DNA from: Pseudohongiella sp. O18 | GTDB lineage: Bacteria > Pseudomonadota > Gammaproteobacteria > Pseudomonadales > Pseudohongiellaceae | Direction: 5' to 3' | DNA: 64,000 bases | Assembly (NCBI RefSeq): GCF_021729085.1 | Contig: NZ_JAJSAR010000001.1 | Location: forward strand, 1 to 64,000 | Shown here: piece by piece, positions 26,123 through 46,606 of the stretch | Layout of the letters: every line of letters begins with the position of its first letter | How positions within the stretch are numbered: position 1 is the stretch's first letter | Position numbers and translations under genes: made by a program | The notes under the pieces: model-generated | Told to the model about the DNA's origin: nothing | Databases searched by the model: none | What the model saw: the letters and a program-made list of their open reading frames with translations, nothing else

Positions 26123-26776
26123 TCAGCCAGTCAGTATCTCGAATCTATCGCTATGTTGTGGTTGCCCGCGAACGGCGGCATAGTCGTGCGGGTGATTGAT
26201 ATTGGCAAACTGAACAGCATCGACCCCTGGTAATCGCACCTCGACTACAGGCTTATGTTCCAGCCAGCGGTGAACGGAGCGGCCGCCAGCATCCAGCCAG
26301 TCACGCAGATCAGCTCGCCAGTGCCCCGGATTCAACGCCAGGCACAAAGGCTGCCGCTGTGTGCCATCGTGCAACACCGCTATTGTGTCCGGTGAGCACA
26401 GGCTGCTCACCAGCTCTAGCGGCAGCAGCGCAGGCAGCAACGGCATATCACAGGGAACAATCACCAAGGGTATGTTGCCTGAGGCGACCGCCAAGATTGA
26501 CTCAATGCCGCCCAGAGGCCCCACACGCACCGGTCTCAGGTCAGCAACTACAATCCCCGGCATGCGCCCGTAGATGCTCAGGTTTCGGTTTGCGCTGATA
26601 ATCACAGAAGTATCTGGCAAGCCGGGACAGCGAAATCGATCCGCAAGCATCTCGACAAATGTGACCTGACGCTCTAGCAGGCGCAGGCCGAGCAGACCTT
26701 TATCCTGCCCGCCCATTCGCTGCCCGGCGCCGCCACAAAGAATCGCCAGATCGTATCGGCCGTTGCCGTCAAACAT
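26123..26776 (-). CDS. mobA: Molybdenum cofactor guanylyltransferase MobA
   Basis: Attaches GMP to Mo-molybdopterin to form the guanine dinucleotide cofactor needed by NasA-type nitrate reductases. The N-terminal nucleotide-binding motif LCGGAGQRMGGQDKGLLGL is intact, as are RPVRVGPLGGIESIL and VIVPCDMPLLP. 217 residues. It is the last gene of the nirB-to-mobA operon, starting directly after the cobA/porin stop. Its presence there fits cofactor supply for the upstream nasA. Confidence 0.94.
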   Translation of the reverse strand: MFDGNGRYDLAILCGGAGQRMGGQDKGLLGLRLLERQVTFVEMLADRFRCPGLPDTSVIISANRNLSIYGRMPGIVVADLRPVRVGPLGGIESILAVASGNIPLVIVPCDMPLLPALLPLELVSSLCSPDTIAVLHDGTQRQPLCLALNPGHWRADLRDWLDAGGRSVHRWLEHKPVVEVRLPGVDAVQFANINHPHDYAAVRGQPQHSDRFEILTG

Positions 26777-28006
26777 TCAGAACCGCGCCTCTGCCATCAA
26801 CCAGAACTTGCTGGTATCCCGGGCGAACTGCTCCGCCTGATAACGCGCGTACTTGGCTGTCAGCGTGTAACGCGTGCCGAAGGCTCGGCCAAGCTGAATA
26901 TTCCACTCTTTACCGTAGTCAAGGCCAGAAACATCCGCCTGATAGTCATGATGATGCAACTGCAGAGCAAATCCTGCGACGACACCCGATACGCTGAACT
27001 GGTTATCCCGCATGCCGGCAGTGGGCGTCGTCAGAAATTTATCTGCCCAGCCCTGAAAAGCGTGCAGTGTCGCCAGTGGCGTCTGCATGGCAACGCCAGC
27101 ACTGCTGTCCGCGCCCAGCGACTCATGCGCCCAGCCAATCCGCCATCCGGCATGTGTAAGCCCCAGGCCCGCATGATGGTAATTCACGTCAAAACTGGCC
27201 GGGTTATTGGCTGCATCCGTTTGCTGTGCAACTTCAGCTCTATAATCCAGCCGCAGATTCTCTCTGGCATCAAACGCCCCGCTGACGATCAGACCCGTGG
27301 TTGCAGAGGACAATGCAGCTGCATCGTCGAAATCCAGCGCGATATGATAGGCAGCCACATCAATAGCCGGGCTGACCGTCCAGCGTGCGTTCAGAATATG
27401 ATGATCGCTGTCCAGCGATGCTGCCGGCACACCTGACTCGGGTCCAAAGATACGTTGAGTATCGTCAACCCAGGCGTAGTTGAGCTGCACCTGCTCAGCG
27501 GGTTTATAAGCAACATCAATGGCATCGTAGGTCTGTTCGTTCTGACGCCAGCCGACGCCACCAATCATTCGCTGATTTTCCCGCAGCAGGCGCTGTCGGC
27601 CTGCCGTCACGGTCAGCCGGTCACGTTCCAGTCGCAACGCAGCCTGATTAAGATCGGTCCCGTCCGGATCAACAATGACTGGTCGCATTATCATGCCATT
27701 ACGAGTGTTGTTGAAGCTGTCGTCACCCAGATAACTGACATTGTCCACTTCCACCAATAGCGACAGGCTTTGCCAGCTTCCACTTCGATACGTCAGTCGG
27801 GTACGCAGCGTATTGGCCACTGCATCTCTGGGCAGAGCATCGTCGTCAACCTGTTCACTTCGCGCCCTGAATGAAATTGACGTGCTACCTTGCGCCAGCG
27901 CTTCGGCGACACTGTCTGAATCTGCAGCGCCTGCCAATGCTGGCGCTGTTGTCAGCATCATGGCAGCAGCGACGTTTCTGCCCAGTGCCATTTTGCTGCG
28001 AGACAC
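26777..28006 (-). CDS. Internal-start porin-like outer-membrane protein (alternative product of the cobA frame)
   Basis: If translation restarts at GTG 28006 (VSRSKMALG) or ATG 27991 (MALGRNVAA), the product is a secreted protein of about 404-409 residues. It would have a basic n-region, a hydrophobic core and an ALAGA-ADS cleavage site. The mature part is rich in alternating strands, with Tyr/Trp girdle residues and a C-terminal Phe (FWLMAEARF) as required for BAM recognition. Ribosome sites are weak: AGG 11 bases before the GTG. Placement in a nitrate operon suggests passage of nitrate or nitrite through the outer membrane, which is inference. Confidence 0.5.
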   Translation of the reverse strand: MSRSKMALGRNVAAAMMLTTAPALAGAADSDSVAEALAQGSTSISFRARSEQVDDDALPRDAVANTLRTRLTYRSGSWQSLSLLVEVDNVSYLGDDSFNNTRNGMIMRPVIVDPDGTDLNQAALRLERDRLTVTAGRQRLLRENQRMIGGVGWRQNEQTYDAIDVAYKPAEQVQLNYAWVDDTQRIFGPESGVPAASLDSDHHILNARWTVSPAIDVAAYHIALDFDDAAALSSATTGLIVSGAFDARENLRLDYRAEVAQQTDAANNPASFDVNYHHAGLGLTHAGWRIGWAHESLGADSSAGVAMQTPLATLHAFQGWADKFLTTPTAGMRDNQFSVSGVVAGFALQLHHHDYQADVSGLDYGKEWNIQLGRAFGTRYTLTAKYARYQAEQFARDTSKFWLMAEARF

Positions 28007-28792
28007 CTGATGCGATGCCTGTTCAACGGCAGCCCTCGCTTGCTGGGCCAGGGTGATCACTTTGCCCACCACCAGCAGGCAGGGTGTCTGAAGATTGTGC
28101 TGTTTTGCCATTTGCTCGATTTCCTTAAGTTTGCAAGTAATAGTTCTCTGATGTGCGTAGCTTCCGTTCTCGATTAGCGCGGCCGGTGTATCGGGCGACA
28201 TGCCATGAGAGCCAAGGTTCTTCTGAATTCGCTGCAGGGAACTCAGCCCCATGTAAAAGACAAGCGTGCGTTGCGGATCTGCAGCCAGCGAAGCCCAGTC
28301 GGTGTCATCCCCATCGTCACTGTGGTGAGCGGTCGTCAGGCAAACGCTATCGGCGACCTTACGCTGTGTCAGCGGAAAGCCCGATGCCGCTGCACAGGCA
28401 GCCGCAGCTGTGATTCCCGGCACGACATGTACGGGGACCCCCGCTGCGCGCAGAGTCAACATTTCCTCGCCGCCGCGACCGAAAATAAATGGATCACCGC
28501 CCTTTAGCCGGACCACTTTGCAACCACGGCGGGCATGCTTGACCAGCAGCGCCTCGATTTCGTGTTGGGGCACCCGATGAAAGCCCGGCCGTTTACCAAC
28601 ATCCAGCATGACGGCGTCATCGCGCGCCTCTTTTAATAACTGTGGCGAGACCAGACGATCATAGACCAACACGTCCGCCTCTCGGATCAGGCGTAAACCA
28701 CGCACGCTGATCAGCTCCGGGTCGCCCGGGCCTGCGCCAACCAACCACACCTCACCTACCCTGTGAATATCACTCTGTACTAGTGACAACAT
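26777..28792 (-). CDS. cobA: Uroporphyrinogen-III C-methyltransferase fused in frame to an outer-membrane porin-like barrel
   Basis: A 671-codon uninterrupted frame with two unrelated parts. Residues about 12-255 are a complete SUMT (CobA): GEVWLVGAGPGDPELISVRGL, VVRLKGGDPFIFGRGGEE, VVPGITAAAACAA and TLVFYMGL. It makes precorrin-2 for siroheme, the NirB cofactor. After residue 262 comes a perfect signal peptide (VSRSKMALGRNVAAAMML...ALAGA) and about 380 residues of alternating amphipathic strands ending in Phe, as in alginate-export/porin-type barrels. A cytoplasmic enzyme joined to an exported barrel is topologically implausible. Two products from one frame, the second from an internal start, seem likelier. 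It overlaps nasA by 13 bases. Confidence 0.85.
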   Translation of the reverse strand: MLSLVQSDIHRVGEVWLVGAGPGDPELISVRGLRLIREADVLVYDRLVSPQLLKEARDDAVMLDVGKRPGFHRVPQHEIEALLVKHARRGCKVVRLKGGDPFIFGRGGEEMLTLRAAGVPVHVVPGITAAAACAAASGFPLTQRKVADSVCLTTAHHSDDGDDTDWASLAADPQRTLVFYMGLSSLQRIQKNLGSHGMSPDTPAALIENGSYAHQRTITCKLKEIEQMAKQHNLQTPCLLVVGKVITLAQQARAAVEQASHQVSRSKMALGRNVAAAMMLTTAPALAGAADSDSVAEALAQGSTSISFRARSEQVDDDALPRDAVANTLRTRLTYRSGSWQSLSLLVEVDNVSYLGDDSFNNTRNGMIMRPVIVDPDGTDLNQAALRLERDRLTVTAGRQRLLRENQRMIGGVGWRQNEQTYDAIDVAYKPAEQVQLNYAWVDDTQRIFGPESGVPAASLDSDHHILNARWTVSPAIDVAAYHIALDFDDAAALSSATTGLIVSGAFDARENLRLDYRAEVAQQTDAANNPASFDVNYHHAGLGLTHAGWRIGWAHESLGADSSAGVAMQTPLATLHAFQGWADKFLTTPTAGMRDNQFSVSGVVAGFALQLHHHDYQADVSGLDYGKEWNIQLGRAFGTRYTLTAKYARYQAEQFARDTSKFWLMAEARF

Positions 28793-31473
28793 ACCGCCTC
28801 CTCGGCTTCAGCCGGCTGGTTCTCAGCCAATAATCTTTTGATCTCTGGTATGCAGGAACCACAATTGGTACCCGCCCGACAGCATGAGCCTACTTTTTCA
28901 ACTTCGTCACAACCCGCATCAATCGCAGCCATAACAGTACTTTGATAAACGTTGTGGCAGCTGCAGACCAGGGGTCCGGCTTGTTGTGCAGACTGGTCGG
29001 CAGGAATACCCAGCAGTAGCGCCGGCATCGACATGCTCGTTGCAGCAGCGTCCTCTGCCAGCAGTGCGTCAAGCAACCAGGATTCGTCGATCTGTGGAGG
29101 CTGGGGGGCTTTGGCAAACCACAGCTGAGCACCGTTTTCACCAGTACCCAGCAATCGCAGGTGTTCGCCGTCATCATCCTCCACTTCCGTCCAGGCTGTG
29201 ACATGCTCACCCCACAGTGTCCGGCACGTATTCATACTGACAGGTTCGGTGCCTGCCAGCGTTACCACCTGCCAGTCACCCATTTGTCGCCGGCTCCAAT
29301 ATTTATTCTCAGGTAGTGGCTGCTCCGTCCTGGTAATAAGCAGGGCATACCAGTCAACTTCTACAGCCTGCAGCATCACCGGTATCTGCTTGAATGCCGG
29401 CTGACCCGAGAACGGATCTACGCGAGAAGGCGCCAGAGCACCCACTCTTGCCTGACTGGCAAAACAATCATTCCAGTGAATGGGCATAAAGGCGGACCCG
29501 GCTTTCTGCCCTGGCTGCGGACGCGCGCGAACGACGCAATTCCCCTGGGCGCTGGACACTCTGACAATCGCGCCATCAGTAATATTCAGCTCTGCCATAT
29601 CCTCAGGGTTCAGCTCAACAAATGGCTCTGAGATATGTCGCTGCAGCCGGGAGCTGAGACCTGTGCGTGTCATCGTGTGCCATTGATCACGGATGCGGCC
29701 GGTGTTGAGCACGAACGGGAAATCGACATCAGTCACATCAAGCGTTGCCGGGATGTTGACCGGTACAACATTGGCGCGGCCATCGCGGGTAAAAAAGCGG
29801 CCATCAGCAAGCATTCTTGATGTGCCCTGCAGTTGTGTCAGAAAAACGCTTGCCTGGTGAGCAGGGACGGGCCACTGAATAGGTGTCAGCTGGTCGTACT
29901 CGGCATTGGACAGTGTGGCTAGCGCACCGATATCAAAATCGCGGCTGCCGTTGTTCTGATGACCGGACAGGGCTGCGTGCTCTCGAAAGATATCGGCTGC
30001 GCAGTGGTAATCGAAGGCGTGTCCATAGCCAAGCTTTTCGGCCACCCGACTGATAATCTGCCAGTCCGGCAAAGCCTGGCCAGATAATGGTAGAAAGGCG
30101 CGTTGTCGCGAGATACACCGTTCCGAGTTGGTGACGGTACCATTCTTTTCACCCCATGCTGCTGCAGGCAATTGAATGTGCGCCAGACGCAGCGTGTCTG
30201 TATCCGCAACACAGTCAGACACCACTACATGATCACATCCGGCAAGGGCGCGAATAATCGTGTCTGATTCGGGCAGGGACACGACCGGATTGGTTGCCAT
30301 GATCCAGATAAATTTTATTTTGCCATCGGCGACTGCGCGGAACATGTCCACCGCTTTTAGTCCGGGTTTCTCTGGCAGTTTGTCGCTGCGCCAGAATTCA
30401 CCTACCAGCGCGCGATGCTCTGTATTGTCAATGTCCATGTGCGCAGCGAGCATATTGGCAAGGCCGCCGACCTCGCGCCCACCCATGGCATTGGGCTGCC
30501 CAGTGATGGAGAACGGGCTGCTGCCAGGCTTTCCAACACGGCCCGTGACAAGGTGGCAGTAAAGAATCAGACTGGCCTGATCAACGCCATGCGCAGACTG
30601 ATTAATGCCCTGGGAGAACACGGTTACTGTGGACTGCGTTTGCGCAAATTTCTGATAAAACGCCGCAAGCTCCTCAGCTGTCAAACCACAGCGGCCGGCT
30701 ATCTCACCAAGGTTGCCGCTGCGCGCCTGACTTGCAGCGATCATGTCATCCATGCCATTGGTATGCTGGTCAATGTACTGACGGTCTAGCGCATCATGAG
30801 TACCAAGATAGGCAAGCAAGCCGTCAAACAGCCACACATCACTGCCAGGTGCAATCTGCAAATGCAGGTCAGCCTGTTCTGCTGTCACGGTGCGTCTTGG
30901 ATCGATGACAACTATCGTCATTTCCGGACGTTGCTGTTTGGCCGCCATCAGTCGTTGAAATACCACTGGGTGTGTCCATGCCATATTGGACCCGGTCAAC
31001 ACGACCAGGTCAGCCAGTTCCAGATCCTCATAGCATCCCGGCACTGTATCACTGCCGAATACCCGTTTATGCGCTGCCACCGCTGTCGACATACACAGAC
31101 GACTGTTGGTATCAATATTGGCGGAGCCCAGAAAGCCTTTGATCAGCTTGTTGGCAACATAATAGTCTTCAGTCAACAATTGACCTGATACATAAAACGC
31201 AACCGATTCAGGCCCGTAACGCTTGAGTGTTTTTTCCAGCCGTTTGGCAACTTCGGAGGTCGCATGATCCCAACTGGCCAGCAGACCGTCTACTCGAGGC
31301 TGCAGCAGTCGGCTCTGCGATCCAAGAGTCTCTGCCAATGCGCTGCCTTTGACACACAGCCTGCCGCCGTTGGCCGGGTGCTGCGTGTCTCCAAGCAATT
31401 CACTGGATTTCGAATCCATTTGAAGACCGCATCCCACACCACAGTAGGGGCATGTCGTTCTGATACTGTTCAT
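28780..31473 (-). CDS. nasA: Assimilatory nitrate reductase catalytic subunit NasA
   Basis: Cytoplasmic Mo-bisMGD enzyme reducing nitrate to nitrite, 897 residues. The N-terminal 4Fe-4S motif is CPYCGVGCGL with a downstream Cys in GGRLCVKG. The molybdopterin oxidoreductase core contains GSNMAWTHPV and the nitrate-reductase segment TGQPNAMGGREVGGLANML. A molydopterin-dinucleotide-binding domain lies near residues 560-680. The C-terminal BFD-like 2Fe-2S domain has CSCHNV and CCRAGTNCGSC. There is no Tat signal, which fits the assimilatory type. It overlaps the FAD reductase by four bases and cobA by 13. Confidence 0.96.
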   Translation of the reverse strand: MNSIRTTCPYCGVGCGLQMDSKSSELLGDTQHPANGGRLCVKGSALAETLGSQSRLLQPRVDGLLASWDHATSEVAKRLEKTLKRYGPESVAFYVSGQLLTEDYYVANKLIKGFLGSANIDTNSRLCMSTAVAAHKRVFGSDTVPGCYEDLELADLVVLTGSNMAWTHPVVFQRLMAAKQQRPEMTIVVIDPRRTVTAEQADLHLQIAPGSDVWLFDGLLAYLGTHDALDRQYIDQHTNGMDDMIAASQARSGNLGEIAGRCGLTAEELAAFYQKFAQTQSTVTVFSQGINQSAHGVDQASLILYCHLVTGRVGKPGSSPFSITGQPNAMGGREVGGLANMLAAHMDIDNTEHRALVGEFWRSDKLPEKPGLKAVDMFRAVADGKIKFIWIMATNPVVSLPESDTIIRALAGCDHVVVSDCVADTDTLRLAHIQLPAAAWGEKNGTVTNSERCISRQRAFLPLSGQALPDWQIISRVAEKLGYGHAFDYHCAADIFREHAALSGHQNNGSRDFDIGALATLSNAEYDQLTPIQWPVPAHQASVFLTQLQGTSRMLADGRFFTRDGRANVVPVNIPATLDVTDVDFPFVLNTGRIRDQWHTMTRTGLSSRLQRHISEPFVELNPEDMAELNITDGAIVRVSSAQGNCVVRARPQPGQKAGSAFMPIHWNDCFASQARVGALAPSRVDPFSGQPAFKQIPVMLQAVEVDWYALLITRTEQPLPENKYWSRRQMGDWQVVTLAGTEPVSMNTCRTLWGEHVTAWTEVEDDDGEHLRLLGTGENGAQLWFAKAPQPPQIDESWLLDALLAEDAAATSMSMPALLLGIPADQSAQQAGPLVCSCHNVYQSTVMAAIDAGCDEVEKVGSCCRAGTNCGSCIPEIKRLLAENQPAEAEEAVCCH

Positions 31474-39577: not shown

Positions 39578-40828
39578 TTACGGCTGCAGAATGTCGGCCA
39601 TCTCTATCACTGAACGTGCCACATCTGTCAGGCGACGGCTCTGGTTCATCGCGGCCTGGCGCAGCGCCCGGTAAGCTTCATCTTCATTCAGCCCTCGATG
39701 CTTCATAAGAATCAGCTTGGCGCGTTCGAGCACTTTGCGCTCCTCCAACGCCGATTTGGCTGCATCCAGCTCGGCTCCCATCTCCTGCAGGCGCCGCGCC
39801 TGAAATTGCAGCAACTCCATCATTGAGCGTCCCACAGGAGGTTGTTCAGTAACTGAGCTATTGGCGTCTGCCGCGCTGACCGGCACCAGAAAAACGGTAT
39901 TATCAGGGCCAGCCTGCCTATCCAGCTCTTCGAGCGCAAGCTGATTGCAGTCCAAGAGCTGCCTGGCCTCAGAGAGTTGCACCTGGCACAACTGTTTCAA
40001 TGCCAACTGAAGTTTCTGTTCAATGTCATACATGGCATCAATGCGCTCGGTGGCTATCCGGAACCATCGATCAGCCAGCGACTCATCACCAAGACTGCCA
40101 CCGCGGGCGGCAAGCGCTCGCAGGCCCTTTAACTCAGGAATAATGGCTGCGCTTCCAAGCTCAGACCATAGGCGCAATGAACGCTCATCGGCAAATTGGG
40201 CAAAGACTTCAAAGCAGCGCTCCTGGGATTCAACCAGGTGTTGCAGCCGGCTTACCTGATCTGCGGTGAACTGGCGGGCTGCGAAACCAGCCGAGCCGAC
40301 AGCTCGCTCCTGACCAGCCAGCTCCTTGCCCTGCATGAAATTGAACAGAGCGACCAGGCCTCGCGTAATTGCAGGATCGGACGCGGCATCTGCTGTTTCA
40401 AACACAACCCCCAGCAATGATTGAATCACCTGCGAATACGCGTCTGTCACTTTATTCAGCGCAAGCTTTCGCGACAGCACCTGGTCACGCAGCACTGCAA
40501 TACCGGTCAACAGGTGCACTGCACTGGCTATCCGGCTAAACAGGCGTGCGCCGCCCGGAAACACGCCCAGCTCAGCGTTGGCGCGGCTAAGTGTCAGGTG
40601 AAAACTGCCTGTTTCACTGTCAACCTGCTTCTGAATGACCTGCAAACGGTCCTGGTAGTCCTGACCGCCTGAAGCCAGATACACATTCGATGCACCGCGC
40701 TCTCTCTGCAAAGCATGCACCAGCGCACCGATAGCTGACACGAGTTCGCCCAGCGCAAGAAAACTTGTCAATCCCTGTATTTCGCACCGTTTGGAGGCAA
40801 CCAGAAAATCTGCCGCACTCATAGCCAA
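39578..40828 (-). CDS. nasR: Nitrate-responsive antiterminator NasR (NIT-ANTAR)
   Basis: A 416-residue RNA-binding regulator. The N-terminal two thirds form a helical NIT domain that senses nitrate and nitrite, including HALQRERGASNVYLASGG typical of NIT. The C-terminal 60 residues are an ANTAR domain with LERAKLILMKHRGLNEDEAYRALRQAAMNQSRRLTDVARSVI. On binding nitrate, NasR binds leader hairpins and prevents termination. Matching leaders occur before nirB and before nrtA. It is convergent with the transporter genes and probably follows the DUF2058 gene in one transcript, since the gap is 19 bases. Confidence 0.94.
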   Translation of the reverse strand: MAMSAADFLVASKRCEIQGLTSFLALGELVSAIGALVHALQRERGASNVYLASGGQDYQDRLQVIQKQVDSETGSFHLTLSRANAELGVFPGGARLFSRIASAVHLLTGIAVLRDQVLSRKLALNKVTDAYSQVIQSLLGVVFETADAASDPAITRGLVALFNFMQGKELAGQERAVGSAGFAARQFTADQVSRLQHLVESQERCFEVFAQFADERSLRLWSELGSAAIIPELKGLRALAARGGSLGDESLADRWFRIATERIDAMYDIEQKLQLALKQLCQVQLSEARQLLDCNQLALEELDRQAGPDNTVFLVPVSAADANSSVTEQPPVGRSMMELLQFQARRLQEMGAELDAAKSALEERKVLERAKLILMKHRGLNEDEAYRALRQAAMNQSRRLTDVARSVIEMADILQP

Positions 40829-44125: not shown

Positions 44126-46606
44126 ATGCCAAATCTGCTTCCGACATCTGCGCTGTTCCTGCTACTGACAACCAGCACCCTGGTCGTCGCCCAGCCGTCC
44201 GACAACACTGATTTTGACCTACAGGCCCACCGCGGCGGTCTGGGGCTGGTGACCGAAAGCACGCTGCAGGCTTTTGCTAATGCGCTTGAGCTGGGTGTCA
44301 GCACGCTCGAGCTGGATACTCAGGTAACGGCCGACGGTTATGTGGTTGTCACTCATGATCGTCAGGTGCTGCCACACCGATGCCTGGATACTGCCCCTGC
44401 CACAGCTGACGATCCGCAGTTTCCATACGTAGGCAAATACATCAACGACCTGAGCTGGTCTCAGGTCAGAACACTGGATTGTGGCTCACAGCGGGCATCT
44501 GCCCATGCCAGTCAACAGACGGTGCCTGGTGCGCGGCTGGTTCTGCTCAGCGAAGTCTTCGATCTGGTCAAGCGTCATCGCGCCTTCGATGTCATGTTGA
44601 ACATCGAGACCAAGGTCGAGGCTGGTGCACCTGAGGAAACAGCGCCACGTGAGGTCTTCGTGCAGGCAGTCATTGACCAGATCTACGAGCACGATATGCA
44701 GCACCAGGTCAGCATCCAGAGTTTTGACTGGGGCGCCCTGATGCATGTGCGTGAGTTGGCTCCTGAGTTGCCCATTATTGCACTGTCCAATGAGCAGTCC
44801 TTCCTGCAGTGCGGTATGCCCGGCGCCTCGCCGTGGACTGGCGGCATCGACATGGACGATTTTGACTGCAATCTGCCCGCCGCTGCCGCGTCGTTTGGCG
44901 CTGATGCAATCTCTCCTGTGCACGGGCACCCGCAGGATGCCAGCGTGACTGAAGCCAACTACCAGCCTTTCACTACGCCGGAGATGGTCACGCAGGCGCA
45001 AACGCTGGGAATAAGAGTGATCCCATGGACCATCAATGACGCGGCCACCATGGCACATCTGATAAGCATCGGCGTTGATGGCATCATTACCGATTACCCT
45101 GACCGTTTGCGCACAATCCTGGCCACTGAAAATCGTCCACTGCCTGCACCACAGGCGGCAGTTGAACCAGAAACCAGTGACCTCGGAGAACAATCCATCC
45201 TGAGCCTGCAGCAACGGATGGCAACTGGCACGCTCAGCGCGGAACAGCTTGCCCAGCACATGCTGGGGAGAATCAGTCGTTACGATGATCAGGGCCCAGC
45301 GCTTAACACAATCATCACGCTAAACCCGGATGCTGTTGCGCAGGCACGACGACTGGACGAAGAACGTCAGTTCAGTGGACCGCGCAGCCTGTTGCATGGC
45401 ATCCCGATACTACTGAAGGACAACTACAACACAACAGATATGCCAACGACCGGCGCATCGCAGGCACTGGCAGACTTTACCCCGAGTGCTGAAGCCACGC
45501 AGCTAAGGCTGCTGCGGGAAGCCGGCGCCGTGATACTGGGCAAAACCAATCTGCATGAATTTGCCTACGGTATTACGTCCATCAGTTCGCTGGGAGGACA
45601 GTCGCGCAACCCCTACGATCCATCTAGAGTGCCAGGTGGCTCCAGCGGTGGCTCAGCAGCAGCTGTGGCTGCCGGTTTCGCAACTATCGCGACTGCTTCG
45701 GATACCTGTGGCTCAATTCGTATTCCCGCGGCCTTTAACAATCTGGCAGGGTTGCGTCCCAGCAAGGGCCTGAGCAGCATTTACGGCATCATGCCGCTTG
45801 CCAGCACCCCTGATGTCGGCGGTCCACTGGCTCGCCATATCGAAGATCTGGCCATCGTATTGGACCTGACCACAGGTTACGACCCACTTGATGAGGCAAC
45901 CGCTGTCATGCTGAGCCGCAGTCGTCCGCAGTTCCAGCGTCACCTGAATACAGCAGACATCGAGGGGCTGCGTGTTGGCCGTCTGAGCAATTATATGGAT
46001 AGCGCGACTCCCGAAGTTGCACAAATGATGGCGCAGGCTTTCAGCGAGTTTGACCGGCTAGGGGCGGAGATAATTGATATTTCGATTGAAGACATGTCTG
46101 CTCTGATCAGCGCCTCAGGCTTGATTGGACACGAATTCGAAGCTGACCTGAACCACTACCTCCAGACCTTTGGCAGTGTGCGCTACCCGACGCTGCAAAG
46201 CATAGTGGAAAGTGGCCTGTATCATGAAGCCGTCGCCAACCTGCTGCAACGAAGCGCCGCCGGCGAACAGAATCCGGAAGCTTACCGCCAGGCTCTGGTA
46301 GCTCGTCAGCCCTTGCAGGCGGCCATTGATTCCGTGATGGCAATGCATGACCTGGACGTGATTGCCTACCCACCCATTGGCGCACTGCCAGTGCTGACAG
46401 GTGAGAGCCAGCCGGGCAACAACTGCAGTCTCAGTGCTAACGCGGGCTACCCGGCACTTTCTGTGCCGGTCGGGTTTTCCGCAGATGGCCTGCCGATGGG
46501 AATCGAGCTGCTGGGCGGCTATATGAGCGATGTACGCCTGCTGTCGATTGGCCATGCCATCGAGCAGGCGTGGCCACAGCGTCGCGCGCCGATATTAGAC
46601 CAGTGA
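44126..46606 (+). CDS. Exported glycerophosphodiester phosphodiesterase-amidase fusion
   Basis: An 826-residue secreted two-enzyme fusion. The signal peptide is residues 1-22 (ending VVA-QPSDN). Residues about 30-335 are a GDPD domain: H35-R36, STLELDTQVTADGYVVVTHD, LNIETKVE and a C-terminal TDYPDRLR. Residues about 355-820 are an amidase-signature domain with catalytic Lys431 (LLKDNYNT), the GGSSGGS loop (Ser506/507) and Ser530 in SDTCGSIRIPA, where the usual Gly before GS is Cys. Both active sites look intact. The natural substrate could be an N-acylated glycerophospholipid cut at the phosphodiester and then at the amide, which is inference. Confidence 0.85.
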   Translation: MPNLLPTSALFLLLTTSTLVVAQPSDNTDFDLQAHRGGLGLVTESTLQAFANALELGVSTLELDTQVTADGYVVVTHDRQVLPHRCLDTAPATADDPQFPYVGKYINDLSWSQVRTLDCGSQRASAHASQQTVPGARLVLLSEVFDLVKRHRAFDVMLNIETKVEAGAPEETAPREVFVQAVIDQIYEHDMQHQVSIQSFDWGALMHVRELAPELPIIALSNEQSFLQCGMPGASPWTGGIDMDDFDCNLPAAAASFGADAISPVHGHPQDASVTEANYQPFTTPEMVTQAQTLGIRVIPWTINDAATMAHLISIGVDGIITDYPDRLRTILATENRPLPAPQAAVEPETSDLGEQSILSLQQRMATGTLSAEQLAQHMLGRISRYDDQGPALNTIITLNPDAVAQARRLDEERQFSGPRSLLHGIPILLKDNYNTTDMPTTGASQALADFTPSAEATQLRLLREAGAVILGKTNLHEFAYGITSISSLGGQSRNPYDPSRVPGGSSGGSAAAVAAGFATIATASDTCGSIRIPAAFNNLAGLRPSKGLSSIYGIMPLASTPDVGGPLARHIEDLAIVLDLTTGYDPLDEATAVMLSRSRPQFQRHLNTADIEGLRVGRLSNYMDSATPEVAQMMAQAFSEFDRLGAEIIDISIEDMSALISASGLIGHEFEADLNHYLQTFGSVRYPTLQSIVESGLYHEAVANLLQRSAAGEQNPEAYRQALVARQPLQAAIDSVMAMHDLDVIAYPPIGALPVLTGESQPGNNCSLSANAGYPALSVPVGFSADGLPMGIELLGGYMSDVRLLSIGHAIEQAWPQRRAPILDQ

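Follow-up and report, generated by a model that had tools for sequence, protein, structure and literature searches.

An in-frame fusion of cobA to a predicted outer-membrane porin in the nitrate operon of two Pseudohongiella species

The cobA-porin frame and its operon

The window, a stretch of 64,000 nucleotides from Pseudohongiella sp. O18, contains on its minus strand (28792–26777) a single open reading frame of 671 codons, which begins with ATG and has no internal stops. A sequence-only reading, in which the strand was not given, had described this frame as a SUMT, then a signal peptide, then a porin with a terminal Phe, had proposed porin starts at GTG 28006 and ATG 27991, and had assigned the gene to a nitrate operon. 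The frame, its parts, and the operon are borne out by the analysis. The two proposed start codons are codons 263 and 268 of the frame, and the tight minus-strand operon has the order nirB, nirD, FAD oxidoreductase, nasA-like reductase, cobA-porin, and mobA. At the other five operon junctions, the genes overlap by up to 13 nt or are at most 2 nt apart. The fusion and its immediate neighbours comprise the following features.

28780–31473, minus strand: nasA-like molybdopterin reductase (Pfam Molybdopterin, 2e-62), overlapping the cobA start by 13 nt
28040–28792, minus strand: CobA/SUMT domain, fusion residues 1–251 (Pfam, TIGR01469, 1pjq, and dN/dS)
28004–28006, minus strand: candidate internal start GTG, codon 263 (SD energy -2.5 here and +0.4 in the sister species)
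27992–28039, minus strand: linker, residues 252–267 (from comparison of the junction; open and free of indels relative to the sister species)
27989–27991, minus strand: candidate internal start ATG, codon 268 (SD energy -3.8 here and -0.2 in the sister species)
27926–27991, minus strand: putative internal Sec-type signal peptide, residues 268–289 (read by eye; A-x-A motifs)
26780–27925, minus strand: predicted mature porin, residues 290–671, with a C-terminal Phe (AF2 model, Foldseek, and Alginate_exp)
26123–26776, minus strand: mobA-like gene (Pfam NTP_transf_3, 3.1e-21), directly after the stop of the fusion

The CobA half is a complete uroporphyrinogen-III methyltransferase (SUMT). It matches Pfam TP_methylase (PF00590) over residues 15–225 (E=1.6e-52, 179 bits against a cut-off of 27.8) and exceeds the curated threshold of TIGR01469 (298.1 bits, cut-off 185). 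Its match to the solved siroheme synthase 1pjq has an E-value of 9.1e-73, and the fold match is at 50% identity. The porin scores marginally above the gathering score of 25.2 bits for Pfam Alginate_exp (PF13372), both alone (26.4 bits) and within the whole fusion (25.6 bits), and reaches 18.3 bits against the curated cut-off of 150 for the Opr family porin model NF033923. A porin profile searched against sequences of solved structures gave five weak matches, all to short viral capsid chains, which we judged to be due to chance. The putative signal peptide was assigned by eye to residues 268 to about 289, and its first codon is the candidate start ATG 27991.

The AlphaFold (AF2) model of the fusion, calculated from 52 aligned rows, has a mean pLDDT of 82.0 and a pTM of 0.60. 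It contains the SUMT domain, a helix spanning residues 245–281 that is of low confidence at 262–271, and 18 beta-strands within residues 303–670. The porin half is thus predicted to be an outer-membrane beta-barrel of 18 strands. The SUMT half takes the majority of places among the 50 fold matches listed by Foldseek, and the barrel is matched by OccAB4 and OccAB2 of Acinetobacter (ranks 44 and 49, TMt 0.71, identity 12 and 14%).

The names of two neighbouring genes, nasA-like and mobA-like, rest on Pfam domains and genomic setting, because their NCBIfam matches lie below cut-off: those of the reductase to Fdh-alpha and NasC, and that of the mobA-like protein to TIGR02665 (113.1 bits, cut-off 151.85). 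The nasA-like reductase has a C-terminal BFD-like [2Fe-2S] domain, and its start has a weak SD. Divergently, on the plus strand, lie nrtA (Pfam NMT1_2) and genes for a permease and an ABC ATPase, the latter two recognised by eye. Past the nrt genes, a minus-strand gene (39578–40828) encodes a protein with NIT and ANTAR domains, by its domain make-up a NasR-like nitrate-responsive antiterminator. Another two-domain protein of the window, 826 aa long, combines a glycerophosphodiester phosphodiesterase (GDPD) with an amidase and is encoded on the plus strand at 44126–46606.

The neighbourhoods of the 80 best porin relatives in named genomes were examined in flanks of up to 4 kb per side. In 31 of them, the flank encodes a homologue of another operon protein or of NrtA or NrtB. 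The count rises to 52 when NarK-, NarL-, PilJN-, NasT-, and MoaA-like genes are admitted, a loose figure, since NarL- and MoaA-like genes are common; the flanks of the other 28 contain none of these genes. The neighbourhood points to nitrate instead of alginate export, and from gene neighbourhood alone it is fair to infer a role of the porin in the passage of nitrate or nitrite.

Distribution of the fusion and selection on its parts

Fifteen Pseudohongiella genomes, including that of the window, were compared. Ten contain the cobA-porin pair, and it is fused in two, the window's own genome and that of a sister species (G008). The sister frame also has 671 codons and is free of indels, with 90% protein identity and 205 synonymous differences. 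In the other eight genomes (G002, G005, G006, G007, G011, G012, G013, and G014) cobA ends in a stop codon and is followed after 25–102 nt by the porin, which shares the frame of cobA in five of these genomes; the porin of G002 is truncated by a contig end. The position of the linker is occupied in these relatives by the tail of cobA, the stop codon, and the spacer with the porin SD. No match to the pair was found at E<=1e-74 in the remaining five genomes (G001, G003, G004, G009, and G010).

Trees of the porin and of CobA were calculated from 14 rows each, leaving out locus L124, in which no frame was found by motif. The fused pair is grouped with support of 100/100 in the porin tree and 100/99 in the CobA tree. 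In both, it adjoins G007, G011, G012, and G013 (92/93 and 93/96) and is nested among unfused relatives, which is most simply explained if the fusion arose once. On these trees, the fusion is a derived, lineage-specific state kept in two species. The suggestion of the sequence-only reading that the cobA stop was lost recently therefore holds as a lineage-specific loss and fails as an accident of one genome, because the sister species shares the frame. Separate genes in all close relatives, which it had set against a fusion, are found in eight of the ten genomes with the pair, but the nearest relative is fused too. It had also named a sequencing error as a refuting case. One lost or gained base could create such a frame, and nothing was found in favour of an artefact of sequencing or assembly that removed a stop; it retains almost no probability, as the same in-frame junction occurs in G008 at the divergence given above, which rules the error out.

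The 104 porin rows collected correspond to 90 distinct loci after removal of 14 repeats (L033–L036, L047–L050, and L127–L132), and upstream sequence is visible in 89, since locus L099 starts within the porin. The porin is fused to cobA in 2 of the 90, those of the window's genome and G008, where the upstream open stretches are 292 and 297 codons long. Apart from L133, treated below, the longest other open stretches leading into the porin (162 codons in L072, 140 in L083, and 133 in L103) are too short for CobA. Adjacent but separate cobA and porin genes also occur outside the genus, for example in G507, with TAA between them. The same two fusions were the only ones found in 137 genomes of the family (E<=1e-74, up to eight candidates scored per genome). 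Among the matches listed for 390 genomes of the order (E<=1e-90) and 369 of the class (E<=1e-95), with up to three candidates per genome, only the window's own fusion was found; the family, order, and class sets overlap, and the order and class rows, from which G008 is absent, are samples. A 921-aa open frame in G101 (L133) was considered as a second fusion and rejected: its upstream part overlies another gene on that strand, histidine kinase-like by eye, whose reading frame differs.

Selection was estimated by the Nei–Gojobori method from the window's genome and G008. The dN/dS is 0.084 for the whole frame (dS 0.61), 0.082 for CobA (251 codons), and 0.064 for the mature porin (382 codons). 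These ratios indicate that both halves are maintained by purifying selection, and that of CobA is consistent with a fused SUMT that still methylates uroporphyrinogen-III. The values for the linker (0.30, 16 codons) and the signal peptide (0.59, 22 codons) come from short segments with little power. The pS of the signal peptide is low (0.168, 22 codons), and it is equalled by other 30-codon stretches near the start of the gene. Between 43% (16 codons) and 60% (26 codons) of simulations under neutrality gained a stop in the linker, so its openness is weak evidence.

A further SUMT domain of the genome lies in a frame of 462 aa, which is 50% identical over residues 9–251 and CysG-like by length alone. 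The fusion might accordingly be tolerated with one half idle, the SUMT being supplied by the CysG-like protein or the porin being no longer exported. We regard this as unlikely, because the low dN/dS of each half argues that both are kept. Furthermore, the fused porin is the sole match in its genome (one match at E<=1, four candidates scored), and the search there turned up no other porin like it.

Start signals and the fate of the fusion product

All eight unfused relatives of the genus have an SD match where the porin starts, with anti-SD duplex energies between -5.0 and -7.4. The energies at the two candidate starts of the window fall to near zero or above it in G008, and no SD match at codon 263 or 268 is common to the two fused species. 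G008 has an additional ATG at codon 270, with an anti-SD energy of -4.1, which is missing from the window. The test separates the cases only moderately, since a value of -5, as in the relatives, is not extreme among the 265 internal ATGs of the window's ORFs, of which 36.6% score <=-3, 21.1% <=-4, and 15.1% <=-5.

The folding energy of mRNA separates fused from unfused starts better than the SD energy. In the eight unfused relatives, the 60 nt around the porin start have folding energies between -3.5 and -7.9, and each of these starts lies in the most open 0–5% of the local mRNA structure of its own porin gene. At codon 268, the energies in the two fused species are -18.7 and -19.9, the 76th and 83rd percentiles counted from the most open; the relatives' starts sit in spacers, and base composition may account for part of this contrast. 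In G008, codon 263 lies in a fairly open region, at the 11th percentile, and lacks an SD. Control starts in the window are open for nirB, nirD, mobA, nrtB, and nrtC (0–26%) and not open for cobA (48%), nasA (43%, SD -2.9), and the FAD gene (67%), and the first ATG of nrtA lies at the 75th percentile with an SD of -1.1. Some presumably genuine starts of the window are thus themselves neither open nor strong, which counts against the polyprotein reading. The nasA start, with its weak SD, overlaps the preceding gene by 4 nt and can be coupled to it. No cobA stop precedes the internal porin starts, so translational coupling or re-initiation of the nasA type is unavailable to them. Both fused species thus lack the start signals that their relatives retain, a finding that favours a single long chain.

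The sequence-only reading had preferred a porin nested within the longer frame. Translation from an internal start of its own (GTG 28006, ATG 27991, or ATG 270 in the sister species) would then give an ordinary preporin, with the whole fusion as a by-product or as the source of SUMT. Read from codon 263 or 268, the signal peptide appears whole and its n-region contains R/K, and the starts of the unfused relatives align within a few codons, in an alignment that took codon 263 as the first residue. Each fused species also has a weak SD-like match at one ATG, codon 268 in the window and codon 270 in G008. Against this stand the lack of a start with an SD match in both species, the structured ATG regions, unlike those of the eight relatives, and the missing stop. 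In addition, all ribosomes initiating at cobA would still yield the fusion. We therefore consider a separate internal start possible, but on the improbable side, and the weaker of the two readings.

Over the nested porin start we favour a polyprotein that signal peptidase would divide at the internal signal, and we consider it slightly probable that the fusion frame encodes one. Its translation mode, export, cleavage, and SUMT location are what we infer as follows. The cobA stop, the spacer, and the porin ribosome-binding site would have been lost in the common ancestor of the two species, after which one ribosome would synthesize SUMT, linker, signal peptide, and porin. The SUMT would fold and remain cytoplasmic, while the internal signal peptide would enter SecYEG as a loop and keep its N-side inside, and the porin part would be translocated. 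Signal peptidase I would cleave near the A-x-A sites, and the released barrel would pass to the BAM complex. The SUMT would keep the remnant of the signal peptide as a C-terminal tail, which would hold it at the inner membrane at first and might be trimmed later. It is quite possible, if not quite probable, that a single chain divided by signal peptidase in this way tethers the SUMT to the inner membrane and fixes a 1:1 output of SUMT and porin.

An internal signal can be cleaved by signal peptidase while the part N-terminal to it stays cytoplasmic, and FbcH of Bradyrhizobium and engineered internal signal sequences are precedents for export of this kind. The sequence-only reading had held that a single polypeptide would need the barrel to be exported with the enzyme at its N-terminus; by the mechanism proposed here this would not be required, as an internal signal would suffice. 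By eye, the A-x-A motifs and the R/K residues ahead of the hydrophobic core are kept in both fused species. The peak KD hydrophobicity of the signal peptide is 1.48 in the window and 1.51 in G008, compared with 1.91–2.38 in the eight unfused relatives. An internal signal is expected to need a higher hydrophobicity, and the low values therefore count against the polyprotein; they fit a normal N-terminal signal, as the nested porin would have.

Related systems and implications

The FbcH protein of Bradyrhizobium is a cytochrome b-c1 polyprotein with an internal signal peptide as its cleavage site. It resembles the proposed polyprotein in that one bacterial gene gives two proteins, separated by an internal signal peptide and signal peptidase. 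The two products of FbcH are subunits of one inner-membrane complex, whereas those of the fusion would be a soluble enzyme and an outer-membrane barrel. No paper was recognised in the literature searched for FbcH and internal-signal precedents. The likeness of the CobA half to CobA/SUMT proteins and the C-terminal domain of CysG (1pjq, 2ybo NirE, and 1s4d) extends over sequence and predicted fold; unlike the fusion, those chains lack a porin. The porin half shares with Alginate_exp and OprD-like porins such as OccAB4 and OccAB2 the 18-strand barrel predicted here, but it differs from them in sequence, at only 12–14% identity, in its nitrate-assimilation neighbourhood, and in its fusion to CobA. 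In hepatitis C virus, the C-terminus of core is the signal peptide of E1, which follows it, and the cut by signal peptidase leaves core anchored (PMC5402940). This is a viral polyprotein at the ER, and the analogy is one of layout only.

The fusion of a cytoplasmic enzyme to an outer-membrane porin is real, conserved, narrow in distribution (two species), and unusual. No report of a CobA-porin fusion was found in the literature searched, which left most subscription journals outside. The fusion gene could mislead annotation, as it may be named for one half alone. How far a signal peptide can lie from the N-terminus has been studied with engineered fusions. If the frame encodes a polyprotein, it would be a natural test of the distance at which a signal peptide still drives Sec export, here of an outer-membrane barrel preceded by a folded cytoplasmic domain, and the unfused species of the same genus are a ready control.
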